DNA of 33,631 bases from a virus: positions 1 to 33,631 of IMG/VR virus record IMGVR_UViG_3300033004_000007; one strand, 5' to 3'. Both the position numbers and the translations under genes were made by a program. The notes below the pieces were generated by a model. It was given only the letters and a program-made list of their open reading frames with translations, did not search any database and had not been told where the DNA came from. Within the stretch, counting starts at the first letter, position 1. Every line of letters begins with the position of its first letter. Positions 16,271 to 20,735 of this stretch are shown piece after piece.

Positions 16271-16750
16271 TCAAAATCTCAAACTCTGCGCAAAGTCAAA
16301 CGCAGCTTGCCTTTTGCGCGTGGTCCAGCCGTTCGGGCGCCAGTTGGCCCGGACCCAGAGGTTTCGGCGCGAAGACCAGTGTCGACACTCGATCCCCGCC
16401 CTACTGGCCGTTGCTGGCAGCGGGCCAACGAGGAACCTCAGCGGTCTGCCGGTCTGGCTCATGACATGTCGGGCGCGCACGTAGTCGCGCTCGATCGGCT
16501 CAGGACCCTTGATCTCCAACCAGGACGAGCAGGACCGGCCAGGCCAGAGGTAGAAGTCCGGGAGGTAGCCACCCTCCGGAGTTTTGAACCAATCCCATTC
16601 GTACGCGAACGGCACTCCGAGCTTCGTGAAAAAACCTGCCCAGCGAGCTTCGGTCCGAGACCGATATTCAATGCCGTTGAAGCGCGAGGGAATAGCCGCG
16701 ACCGTATGGTTGGTCCTACGGTCTAGCGGCCTATCGCGGTTCCCTGCCAT
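16271..16750 (-). CDS. PD-(D/E)XK family nuclease
   Basis: The product is 159 residues. The motifs are in the right order: Glu34 in YRSRTEARWAGFF, Asp65 in YLPDFYLW and Glu79-x-Lys81 in SWLEIKG. This is the arrangement of small phage endonucleases of the PD-(D/E)XK superfamily. The C-terminus is basic and Trp-rich. It overlaps the 3' end of the membrane-protein gene upstream by 28 bases. It may act in recombination, host DNA degradation or packaging; which one is not decided by sequence. Confidence 0.75.
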   Translation of the reverse strand: MAGNRDRPLDRRTNHTVAAIPSRFNGIEYRSRTEARWAGFFTKLGVPFAYEWDWFKTPEGGYLPDFYLWPGRSCSSWLEIKGPEPIERDYVRARHVMSQTGRPLRFLVGPLPATASRAGIECRHWSSRRNLWVRANWRPNGWTTRKRQAAFDFAQSLRF

Positions 16751-17052
16751 TCGCGTTCACCCTTGACTTTTGCCTGGCACTGGAATGAGTACCTGAGGCT
16801 TTCCAGAATCGACCGATCAAAGAACCACTCAAGCAAGATTTCCCCCGCAACTGTCGGCATGTCGCTCGGACGGACTTTGCGGACCGAACTGCCGGAAGCG
16901 ACGAACGACCCATCCAATTTGGTGATGAGCCAATCAATGTGGGTCCACTCGCGGCCTCGCGCGTCGAAGCGGGCTTCCATGACAATGAGGGTGATCATTG
17001 CCATGGAAGCCGCAACGATGAGGGCCAGGGTCAAACACAATGCGTCCCACAT
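16723..17052 (-). CDS. Single-pass membrane protein
   Basis: The product is 109 residues with AGAGGG seven bases before ATG 17052. Residues 4-25 (ALCLTLALIVAASMAMITLI) form a transmembrane helix. The cytosolic part starts EARFDARGREWTHIDWLITK and contains a basic region. No recognised family. It lies downstream of the translocase in the same direction, with short gaps, so it may be part of that module, much as small Spd-type membrane proteins accompany TraB in actinomycete plasmids; that is inference. Confidence 0.6.
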   Translation of the reverse strand: MWDALCLTLALIVAASMAMITLIVMEARFDARGREWTHIDWLITKLDGSFVASGSSVRKVRPSDMPTVAGEILLEWFFDRSILESLRYSFQCQAKVKGEREWQGTAIGR

Positions 17053-17067
17053 CGCTTGACCCTCTTT

Positions 17068-17899: not shown

Positions 17900-17904
17900 T
17901 TCGG

Positions 17905-20064
17905 CTACGCTCCGTTGCCCACAGGCACGGGCACCTGGAACCGGCCTCGGCCCAGACGCTCCAGGGCGCCGCTCTCGCACGCCTCAGTGATCAGCTGAGA
18001 GACAGCGGGGTCGCGATTGGCCTCAGGCAGGCCAAGCGCGTTTCGCCATTGAAGAACAAACTCAGCCGTCGACATCTCCTCTCCCGAGTTGCCCAGCAGG
18101 ATGCTGGCAAACAGCTCGCGCTTCTCCTTTTTTGACAAAACTCGCTTGACGACTCCAGGCATGTCTGGTTCGGTCATGTCGATCTCCGGCATCCCTGAAG
18201 GTTTGATGTCTTCGCGCGGGTCGATTTCGTCGAACAGCTCTGGGTCCGGCGTACGCGGGCGGCTCAGGTACAGCTCGCTGGTCGGGTCGTCAAAGTCGGG
18301 ATCGCGCTCTGCATCCATTTCCTCTCCCCTGTCTTCCTCGATCGTGGTCGGATCGTACGATGGGGTCACGGTCCGGATTCCGGAAACCGGACTGGAAACC
18401 GGATCGGAAACCGGACTGGAAACCGGACCGGAAACCGGACTGGAAACCGGATCGGAAACCGGACTGGAAACCGGATCCGATCCGGATTGCCAAGCCGCGT
18501 AGGCGTCACCGAACGCGGCCCGGGTGACCGGATCCAGCTTCGGTCCGGATTCCCGGAACGCGGCCATGCTGGCCCGGACCATGCCCTCAAACTCGTGCTT
18601 GCTCATCCCGAAGAAGCTCCGGAATGGGGTCTGGTTCGCCTTGTCGCTCGCCCCGTTCAGCGCGCACATTGCCCTGCCCGGGTACCGGACGTTCCAGCCC
18701 CCCGGACTCACGCCCGTGGCGAGCGTCTCGTCCGGCAGGACGAACTTCGCGTCCTGATCGTCCTCAACGCCAAAGCAGATCCCCTGAGAGAAGGCCGACC
18801 TGAAAGATGTCGGCACCTGATCGTAGGAGAACCGCTGCATTGACGCGCAGATGAAGATCCCCGCGCTCAGGCATTCGTTGCCCACCTGCGTGATCGCGCT
18901 CGGCTGACGGAGAAGCGCGCATGAACCGAACTCCTCGATAAACCAAGCGATCGCGGGCATCCGGAGACGAGGGTCCGTGAAGCACGCTGGTTCCCAACTT
19001 GAGTAGCCGCACTTGCCCAAAGCAATATTGCGTTCACGGATAGCGGCCTTGATGCTTTTCAGTTGACCGAGAAGTTCCGCGTCGTTCGTCGCTATCCACG
19101 AGTTTTCTCGCGTAAGCCCCGGCCGGAGCAAGCCAAGCATCTGCTCGCCTTTTGAGTGATCCGAGATCATCGGGAAGACGTCACAACGCGAGCGAACCTC
19201 GCACATCAGGATCATGACCAGAACGCCCTTGCCGGAGCGAGTGACGCCACCGACTTTCAGGTTGCCCTTGGCGATTCCCGCAACATCGTCGCCCATCACA
19301 TAAAGATGAACAAGCTCGCCAGATTCGTTTAGACCGAGCGGAATCGGCAAGGCGATGGACTCGTCTGCGTGTTTCGGTCCTTCCCACGGGTAGGTGCGCT
19401 TCGAGAGATCTTCCCAGTAGATCTGGATCTCGGCGTCGCCCATGCGCTCTCCCGGCAGGACACGCACTCCCTCGTAGATTGCGCCCACCTCTGAGCCGAT
19501 GCCCGGTGCCGCGTTCAGAGCGTCCTTCGCTGTCTGCCCGGGAGCGAGTGTCGCCTGGACAACCGTGCGATCTGGGGACTCCTCGATCTTCCACCTGCGG
19601 GGACGCTTCAGGCCATGCCAGTCCGGCTCTTCCTTCGCACCGTGGTCGTCCTTGCCCTCGCCAGCGATGACCTCTAGACGGCGGATATTCCACGATACGG
19701 CCAGGGCGAAACCGCCGATGAGAACGAACTCGATCGTGGCGGTGCCGACTCCGAACACCTGCAAAACGTAAAAGAACAGGCCGACCACCGCGACCGTGCC
19801 AGTAGCGTGCATGCGCTGAATAGCCTGCCTCGGGGCAGCGTAAGTCCAGGTTGCGAAAGACAAGCCCATAAACACGGCTAGAATCACCGTGGGAGCGATT
19901 CCGGGGCCGTATGCAGTGTCTGCCCACAGATGATGGAACAGAGCCCCTAGGGCGAGCACAACGGCCGGGAGCACGTGCGGCCCTACGAACGGGAGCATTT
20001 TAAGCAGAGCTGTGCGCTCGACCGCCTGAGCGGCCGAGCGCATCTGCCCGTGACGCTTGACCAT
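17905..20064 (-). CDS. FtsK/TraB-like membrane-anchored DNA translocase
   Basis: The product is 719 residues from ATG 20064 in a TGATG overlap. Residues 1-130 hold about four transmembrane helices (PAVVLALGALFHHLW, VILAVFMGLSFATW, VAVVGLFFYVLQVFG, FVLIGGFALAVSW). The motor domain has Walker A GVTRSGKGV at 273-281, Walker B AIAWFIEEF at 371-379 and the region AGIFICASMQRFSYDQVPTS. A repeated SSPVSDPV linker follows (530-562), then an acidic segment and a C-terminal winged-helix-like end (640-719, TAEFVLQWRNALGLP and ITEACESGALERLGRGRFQV). This layout matches TraB-type translocases of actinomycete plasmids, which pump double-stranded DNA between cells. Finding it in a phage is unusual. Confidence 0.85.
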   Translation of the reverse strand: MVKRHGQMRSAAQAVERTALLKMLPFVGPHVLPAVVLALGALFHHLWADTAYGPGIAPTVILAVFMGLSFATWTYAAPRQAIQRMHATGTVAVVGLFFYVLQVFGVGTATIEFVLIGGFALAVSWNIRRLEVIAGEGKDDHGAKEEPDWHGLKRPRRWKIEESPDRTVVQATLAPGQTAKDALNAAPGIGSEVGAIYEGVRVLPGERMGDAEIQIYWEDLSKRTYPWEGPKHADESIALPIPLGLNESGELVHLYVMGDDVAGIAKGNLKVGGVTRSGKGVLVMILMCEVRSRCDVFPMISDHSKGEQMLGLLRPGLTRENSWIATNDAELLGQLKSIKAAIRERNIALGKCGYSSWEPACFTDPRLRMPAIAWFIEEFGSCALLRQPSAITQVGNECLSAGIFICASMQRFSYDQVPTSFRSAFSQGICFGVEDDQDAKFVLPDETLATGVSPGGWNVRYPGRAMCALNGASDKANQTPFRSFFGMSKHEFEGMVRASMAAFRESGPKLDPVTRAAFGDAYAAWQSGSDPVSSPVSDPVSSPVSGPVSSPVSDPVSSPVSGIRTVTPSYDPTTIEEDRGEEMDAERDPDFDDPTSELYLSRPRTPDPELFDEIDPREDIKPSGMPEIDMTEPDMPGVVKRVLSKKEKRELFASILLGNSGEEMSTAEFVLQWRNALGLPEANRDPAVSQLITEACESGALERLGRGRFQVPVPVGNGA
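18371..18488 (+). repeat. 12-bp tandem repeat inside the translocase gene
   Basis: About eight units of GGAAACCGGA plus two variable bases run at a strict 12-bp period. They encode the PVSS/PVSD/PVSG linker. The word CCGGAAACCGG is shared with the cluster at 17094-17325. Such repeats can vary in number by slippage. Confidence 0.85.
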
Positions 20065-20735
20065 CAATTCCCCATGATCTCGCTTTGAAGATGTGACTCG
20101 AAGAGCTTGATCAGACGGTTCGCCCGGGAGCCTCCACACTGCATGCCCTTGCGAACAGCGGCAAGGCGCTCGGTCTCGCTCAGGGTGAAGAACTCCAGGT
20201 CCGGCCAGAGGCGACGCATGGTCTCCACATCACGCCGGTCGTTCTCGGCGCGCTGTCCGCCAGCAGGCTTGGGCGCGAGCTTGGGCTCCGGCTTGGGCGC
20301 GGGCTTGGGCTTGGGCTCAACGACGGCCCTGGTCCGGGGCTTGCTCTTCGCGTCCGGGAGTGAGCACGTCGTCACGACACAGGCCAGAATGGCAGCGTCG
20401 ACCATGGCAGCTCCCACGTGCACGGAGAACGACGTCCCTCCGCTGAGGCGGATGAAGTCCGAGAAGTGCTCGTAAGAGGTGGCCAGCAAGCCAGCCAGAA
20501 CCAGGCCGACAAAGAGCCGGATCCCGACGTGAATCTCAGACCAGGCTTTGATCAGTCCCTCGGAGATGCAGGCTGCCATGAGGGGGATTACCAGATAGGC
20601 GACTCGACACCCGGCGCTCGGGGCGCTTTCAAGGTTCGTCCATGCGGTTGCGACAAGACCGATCCAGGATGCCAAGTGGAAGCAATTCCTGGGGGTCACA
20701 AGCTCGACTCGACTAGGCTTCATTGTCTTCGTCAT
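20064..20735 (-). CDS. Multi-pass membrane protein with Lys/Pro linker, partner of the translocase
   Basis: The product is 223 residues from ATG 20735, eight bases after GGGAG; the open frame upstream crosses the divergent promoter region and is rejected. It has about four hydrophobic segments (FHLASWIGLVATAW, VAYLVIPLMAACISEG, GIRLFVGLVLAGLLATSY, VGAAMVDAAILACVVTTC). A KPKPAPKPEPKLAPKP linker follows (about 143-158), then a cytosolic helical domain (ETMRRLWPDLEFFTLSETER, KGMQCGGSRANRLIKLF) that may bind DNA. Its stop overlaps the translocase start, so the two are made together and probably act together at the membrane. Confidence 0.7.
   Translation of the reverse strand: MTKTMKPSRVELVTPRNCFHLASWIGLVATAWTNLESAPSAGCRVAYLVIPLMAACISEGLIKAWSEIHVGIRLFVGLVLAGLLATSYEHFSDFIRLSGGTSFSVHVGAAMVDAAILACVVTTCSLPDAKSKPRTRAVVEPKPKPAPKPEPKLAPKPAGGQRAENDRRDVETMRRLWPDLEFFTLSETERLAAVRKGMQCGGSRANRLIKLFESHLQSEIMGN

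Follow-up and report, generated by a model that had tools for sequence, protein, structure and literature searches.

A TraB-family DNA translocase and a clt-like locus in the genome of a tailed phage

Streptomyces plasmids pass double-stranded DNA to neighbouring cells with a single motor gene, traB. Plasmid TraB proteins provide the model of a membrane-anchored ring that assembles through its winged helix on a DNA locus, clt, and pumps double-stranded DNA across the boundary of a cell (PMC4170104, PMC3583192, PMC10191066). Mapping confined the clt of pWTY27 to the last 16 bp of tra and a further 159 bp, in which Tra footprints TGACACC repeats, and pJV1 carries nine CCGCACA repeats (PMC3583192); for pSAM2, an actinomycete integrative and conjugative element (AICE), a clt motif has yet to be described (PMC9513070). 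Phages and conjugative elements are usually regarded as separate vehicles. The Streptomyces plasmid-phage pZL12 is described, as far as Zhong 2010 is cited in PMC3583192, as being transferred conjugatively by a tra gene and two neighbours. The DNA analysed here (the window) is the entire 33,631-bp IMG/VR record IMGVR_UViG_3300033004_000007, which derives from a tailed phage and encodes a 719-residue, traB-like membrane-anchored FtsK-family DNA translocase on its minus strand (17905-20064). No description of TraB-clt modules in tailed phages was found in the literature searched, most subscription papers being outside its reach.

The translocase matched NCBIfam plasmid_TraB (NF041214, with a curated equivalog cut-off of 800 bits) at E 5.2e-81 and 273 bits, residues 23-712 aligning with positions 6-633 of the 639-position model. 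Streptomyces plasmid TraBs were its best matches by tblastn (residues 44-523, E down to 4e-40). It also matched phrog_24831 (2.7e-55); this PHROGs family, so far unnamed, fits the TraB family and could be given that name. The AlphaFold model (46 sequences, mean pLDDT, the per-residue confidence score, 78) contained four predicted transmembrane (TM) helices (31-47, 56-75, 81-104 and 110-135), a motor (147-524), a disordered, low-confidence repeat linker (about 536-640) and a winged-helix domain that is helical with a beta wing (645-710). The motor superposed on FtsK 6t8b (Foldseek E 1.4e-15; VIA Z 27.1, rmsd (root-mean-square deviation) 4.3, 329 residues) and on TcpA, a conjugation protein of pCW3 (Z 26.4, rmsd 3.9, 328 residues). 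Walker A (G273, G278, K279) and Walker B (E377, E378) are intact, and these residues are invariant among TraB relatives.

The model and the invariant motor residues bear out the initial annotation of this DNA, which had described four TM helices, Walker A and B motifs, a repeated linker and a winged-helix-like C-terminus; the structure prediction of 17905-20064 that it had called for returned the FtsK-type motor (Z 27.1) and the C-terminal winged helix. The annotation would have been overturned by close homologues that were all chromosomal FtsK proteins or packaging factors. The nearest homologues are instead plasmid and mobile-element TraBs, with which the protein is collinear over its whole length (TM region, FtsK motor, C-terminal winged helix), and it falls outside the chromosomal FtsK/SpoIIIE class. 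Sequence comparison therefore places the translocase in the TraB family and sets it apart from both chromosomal FtsK and packaging proteins.

The genes around traB in the window are those of a tailed phage. On the plus strand, the contig edge cuts into the gene of an HK97-type major capsid protein, of which the C-terminal part remains (60-293; PF05065, 5.6e-16) and is followed by a head-tail adaptor (2453-3523; phrog_442), a major tail protein (4366-5115; phrog_9522), a tape measure protein (6901-9051) and a tail protein common to Streptomyces phages (9052-11301). A minus-strand block then extends from 14.5 to 20.7 kb, and is followed by a plus-strand lysis region, in which a GH25 endolysin (21570-22556) adjoins the module. 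The presence of capsid, tape measure, tail and lysis genes on one contig identifies the element as a member of Caudoviricetes; neither terminase nor portal was found in the window, and the contig must therefore lack at least that portion of the genome. The nearest relatives of the 9052-11301 tail protein belong to Streptomyces phages and one Thermobifida phage, which suggests that the host is a filamentous actinomycete.

A set of 50,697 annotated phage records yielded no TraB-type protein, and the window protein had no match there even at E 10; in the same records a control search with a tail protein worked, and a plasmid TraB query matched FtsK cores only. A profile search of IMG/VR returned ten traB contigs, and later searches returned more; single-protein searches there with the window traB, tail protein or tape measure found no close relatives. 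Contigs with tape-measure, capsid, terminase or portal genes are among the carriers of traB; several have it at the same tail/lysis boundary, and some hold the plasmid operon DUF2637-TraA-TraB plus GntR. Two of them, G4 (39.8 kb, 73% GC) and G8 (37.8 kb, 70% GC), are near-complete phages in which, as in the window, tape measure and tail genes are followed by traB on the opposite strand, and the layout is found again in L129, L213 and L216. Pfam matches in G4 include TerL, portal, capsid, integrase, sliding clamp and GntR, with DnaB recognised by reading of the sequence; G8 has portal, integrase, ParA and DUF2637 genes, and the integrases of both are tyrosine integrases. In both phages traA lies directly upstream of traB. 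TraA (6.5e-64) and TraB (843 bits, cut-off 800) of G4 exceed their cut-offs, and the DUF2637 match reaches its cut-off in G8 (2.5e-35) and falls slightly under it in G4. The GntR, WhiB-like and DUF2637 genes of G4 and G8 match plasmid counterparts. A companion TraA is present in G4 and G5, and DUF2637-TraA-TraB with a nearby GntR was found in G5, G7 and L086 (S. virginiae). The G5 traB is the same as that of L114 (Streptomyces sp. NRRL F-2664); L086 and L114 are prophages in isolate genomes, with arrangements related to that of the window.

These comparisons bear on whether the window could be an assembly chimera, in which a phage is joined to plasmid or integrative-element sequence. The virus contig has no end repeats (none were found in the 33,631-bp record), a point in favour of a chimera, but GC content and GC at third codon positions (GC3) are uniform over the module, and the same order occurs in G4, G8, L129 and L213 from other datasets, with the related arrangements in the isolate prophages besides. 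The recurrence largely excludes a chimera, which we regard as extremely improbable. The proposal that a TraB-type module lies inside a tailed phage is upheld by the plasmid TraB matches, by the same placement in other phages from independent metagenomes and by a clt-like locus in the plasmid position.

This candidate clt (17776-17904) lies directly 3′ of traB, as does the mapped clt of pWTY27 (PMC3583192), and contains five GCAGAC repeats. As in TraB-clt systems, short repeats thus stand at or just 3′ of the gene: five copies of GTCTGCA/TGCAGAC occupy the 129 bp, and more than three copies were obtained in 0 of 2000 dinucleotide shuffles. The repeat arrays noted earlier at and beyond the 3′ end of traB are genuine and non-random. 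A perfect 20-bp inverted repeat (17820-17839 / 17864-17883; 17820-17883 overall) carries repeats within its arms, and at its centre is CCTAAAGGG (17845-17853, minus strand), the putative counterpart of a CCTAGG clt core. The window fits only a looser core pattern (CCTA, 0-2 bases, GG) that is more frequent in background (5.6%) than CCTAGG, and the weight therefore rests on the combination of features. The CCTA..GG at its centre, the lack of a T run and further repeat copies beyond the hairpin argue against the inverted repeat being a plain terminator.

A second candidate TraB-binding array is formed by 12-bp CCGGA-type repeats in the linker codons of traB (18369-18490), with about 8 copies at 18380-18475. 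As the main clt these linker repeats were set aside, being inside codons and away from the conserved position, and the best candidate is instead the region directly 3′ of the gene. The density of CCGGA/TCCGG is 26 per kb in kilobase 17-18 and 29 per kb in 18-19 (expected 3.3), and these repeats could serve as additional TraB-binding sites.

The architecture was compared in the 170 bp 3′ of traB in loci L047-L126 and plasmids, and recognition helices were compared in the TraB C-termini of 94 loci. A de novo repeat scan, which recovered the pWTY27 and pJV1 repeats as positive controls, detected at least three repeat copies in the 150 bp 3′ of traB in 87 of 94 loci and at least four in 63 of 94. 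The CCTAGG core was present in 59 of 100 traB 3′ regions (170 bp), compared with 0.8% of background windows, and usually has inverted repeat copies on its flanks; no 3′ repeat array follows the pZL12-type and Hiyaa-type translocases. A clt core of short repeat, CCTAGG and inverted repeat is thus conserved after traB in most actinomycete TraB loci, probably those of AICEs among them.

Among the phages, G4 shares the footprinted pWTY27 repeat TGACACC, which occurs five times in the 110 bp next to its traB; the 8-mer CTGACACC is found five times in the whole G4 record, each time in this clt-like region. CCGCACA occurs 3′ of traB in G5. When paired by eye, the recognition helix SRPWVS goes with TGACACC, SRSWVS with TCACACC or TAACACC, RDRSWVS with CCGCACA and, in the window, RDPAVS with GCAGACGT. 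These pairings suggest that the winged-helix recognition helix and the repeat motif change together, in what would be a readable specificity code. As a separate observation, a phage major capsid protein gene is annotated on the conjugative plasmid pWTY27 itself, downstream of traB and clt (L210, 6798-8258), a hybrid in the reverse direction.

The explanation that best fits these observations, and one that we consider reasonably probable, is that the window comes from a phage of a (probably mycelial) actinomycete that uses a conjugation motor of the Streptomyces plasmid kind to move its DNA between cells. The observed elements are the protein family, the motor fold, the membrane helices, the winged helix, the clt-like architecture and the placement inside phage genomes; hexamer formation, DNA binding, transfer, substrate and host are each inferred. 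The motor would have been resident long enough to match the base composition of the phage. Its four helices would anchor TraB in the membrane, where an FtsK-like ring would form, and the C-terminal winged helix would dock at clt (17776-17904), the repeats that follow its own gene on the 3′ side. Unprocessed double-stranded phage DNA, as a circular prophage or replicating form, would then be driven through a cross-wall or hyphal contact, such that the phage genome reaches the next compartment or a neighbouring cell and spreads through the mycelium without lysis, alongside virions. TraB-bearing phages may therefore spread by conjugation besides particles.

The same motor fold, which resembles FtsK/SpoIIIE, would also suit a segregation or maintenance translocase that moves prophage or plasmid-state DNA into the daughter compartments or spores that one mycelium forms at septation, as SpoIIIE does, without reaching other individuals. 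In mycelia, the spreading of a plasmid is not easily separated from its stability (PMC4170104), and ParA is also present in phage G8. However, the plasmid TraBs that have been tested act in intermycelial transfer (PMC3583192, PMC4170104), and the relatives of the window protein are accompanied by TraA, DUF2637 and clt, the plasmid transfer set; segregation is accordingly judged unlikely. The position of traB next to the lysis cassette could point to a role in the lytic cycle or host takeover (DNA ejection, packaging or the blocking of other elements), and FtsK-like phage proteins are classed as moron/host takeover in PHROGs. Phage packaging is nevertheless performed by TerL, which is present in G4; traB is opposite in strand to the tail and lysis genes and is missing from close structural relatives, and plasmid-type companions and clt stand alongside it in other phages. 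We consider such a role improbable.

The evolutionary record of the module bears on whether it has a function at all. The TraB of the window has a long branch with no close relative found, and its TraA and Spd partners are not recognisable, as would be the case for a plasmid fragment that is hitchhiking or decaying and serves no function at present. Yet the 719-residue frame is intact with every invariant motor residue kept, and the clt-like site is structured and conserved. The ratio of nonsynonymous to synonymous substitution (dN/dS) between G8 and the 97-kb element G6 was 0.37 for traB, 0.32 for traA and 0.47 for the DUF2637 gene; purifying selection was thus observed in one related phage/element pair, and these values of 0.32-0.47 in related elements also oppose decay, which is slightly less credible still than a lytic role. 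Because the GC3 of the window traB (0.735) is that of its phage (mean 0.72), the gene does not have the look of a recent insertion. G6 (L034-L038) has a DUF2637-TraA-TraB block at 67-84% protein identity to that of G8 and no capsid or terminase match; such a block apparently passes from one type of element to another. Viral TraBs are dispersed through the tree, where well-supported branches carry at least six label changes, which implies that acquisition happened repeatedly.

Several findings weigh against the proposal of a phage that conjugates by TraB. The score of 273 bits is far under the 800-bit plasmid_TraB cut-off, and the window protein is therefore filed, by the NF041214 rule, as a divergent TraB-family relative and not as an equivalog. 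Its identity to Streptomyces plasmid TraBs is only about 22-31%, its branch in the tree is very long and its placement unsure, and the repeat GCAGACGT is unlike known TraB repeats. No companion TraA was found in the window, and no Spd, TraA or GntR homologue was recognised among its small and neighbouring genes (Pfam, PHROGs, profiles); the 20064-20735 product has no Pfam, SpdB/DUF2637 or other profile match. No replication, partition or integration genes were recognised in the window (no rep or par gene, no integrase), and its GC content of 58.5% is below that of G4 and G8. The close structural relatives L133, L157 and L191 are without traB in the available sequence, from which it follows that traB is an accessory module. 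The broader proposal, of a widespread and so far unrecognised class of actinophages that combine virions with TraB-clt conjugation, acquired the module several times and as prophages can sweep a mycelium, or enter a neighbour, with no need for lysis, is in our estimation evenly balanced between true and false.

Of the genes that flank traB in the minus-strand block, the upstream one (20064-20735) encodes a 223-residue protein with three TM helices and a SpdB/DUF2637-like architecture only. The start codon of traB overlaps its stop codon, which agrees with the coupling to a multi-pass membrane protein that had been proposed; identification as SpdB failed on profiles, and the low-confidence structure model was too poor for use. 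Downstream, small membrane proteins had been predicted, and this held in part. TM helices are predicted in the possible 115-residue, two-TM open reading frame (ORF) at 17068-17415 and in a 109-residue, one-TM protein (16723-17052), but the first gene after traB (17428-17775), directly after the candidate clt, encodes a soluble, helical 115-residue protein. The suggested Spd nature of these proteins was not sustained, profile searches detecting neither Spd nor TraA homology. As a TraA candidate, 17428-17775 ranked first of 312 ORFs with a 7-sequence profile (E 0.04) and failed with 16 sequences; a reversed-sequence control scored better, which puts the candidate at noise level. The 17068-17415 ORF consists largely of TCCGGA-type repeats and may be a repeat-rich spacer, since the codon model left it uncalled; CCGGA/TCCGG occurs there in mixed reading phases and is hence a DNA-level repeat. 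A nuclease-like protein (16271-16750; phrog_21138, and the Holliday junction resolvase family phrog_9019) follows on the same strand. Elsewhere in the window, 24783-26168 (minus) encodes a 461-residue protein without a Pfam or PHROG match, and 26165-26545 (minus) a Pyrophosphatase-family protein (phrog_3301).

Other phage contigs whose tails are related encode opposite-strand, FtsK-like translocases that are not of the TraB type (L155, 20052-22430; L158, 19223-21502; L141, 16546-18225), with short repeats directly after the gene in L155 (AGTTAGG, five copies) and L158 (GCGACAC, four copies). L218 (IMG/VR, 153 kb, 54% GC) encodes a distant TraB relative and has no repeat cluster at the 3′ end.

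If the proposal is correct, recurrent phages that combine a whole plasmid transfer operon with its DNA loading site would join the two vehicles, in the makers of many antibiotics. Prophages with TraB, TraA, DUF2637 and clt are present in the sequenced, culturable Streptomyces sp. NRRL F-2664 and S. virginiae NRRL ISP-5094, so the question of phage conjugation is testable now, and the clt core and apparent pairing of repeat and recognition helix provide concrete predictions for TraB specificity.

The closest known systems are the TraB-clt systems carried by the small Streptomyces plasmids pSN22, pJV1, pWTY27 and pSVH1, with which the locus shares N-terminal TM helices, an FtsK core, a C-terminal winged helix and short oriented repeats just 3′ of traB; the TraA/DUF2637/GntR set of Streptomyces plasmids is also present in phages G4, G8 and G5. 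Unlike those systems, the modules described here are in tailed-phage genomes, and in the window the repeat motif is new and neither TraA nor Spd can be recognised. The translocases of Hiyaa, Galactica, P1312 and mycobacteriophages such as Courthouse share the FtsK/SpoIIIE ATPase core, but the core alone aligns and TraB-type N- and C-terminal parts are lacking. Like the phages described here, pZL12 appears, from what is cited of it, to be both a phage and a self-transmissible Streptomyces element that uses an FtsK-family gene; however, pZL12.71, taken here as its tra gene, belongs to another FtsK-like branch and has no 3′ repeat array, and pZL12 is a 90-kb element, compared with about 38-40 kb for the phages here, of which G4 and G8 have tyrosine integrases. 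AICEs share TraB-type transfer, GntR regulators and filamentous actinomycete hosts; they make no virions, whereas the elements described here encode capsid, tail and lysis genes.

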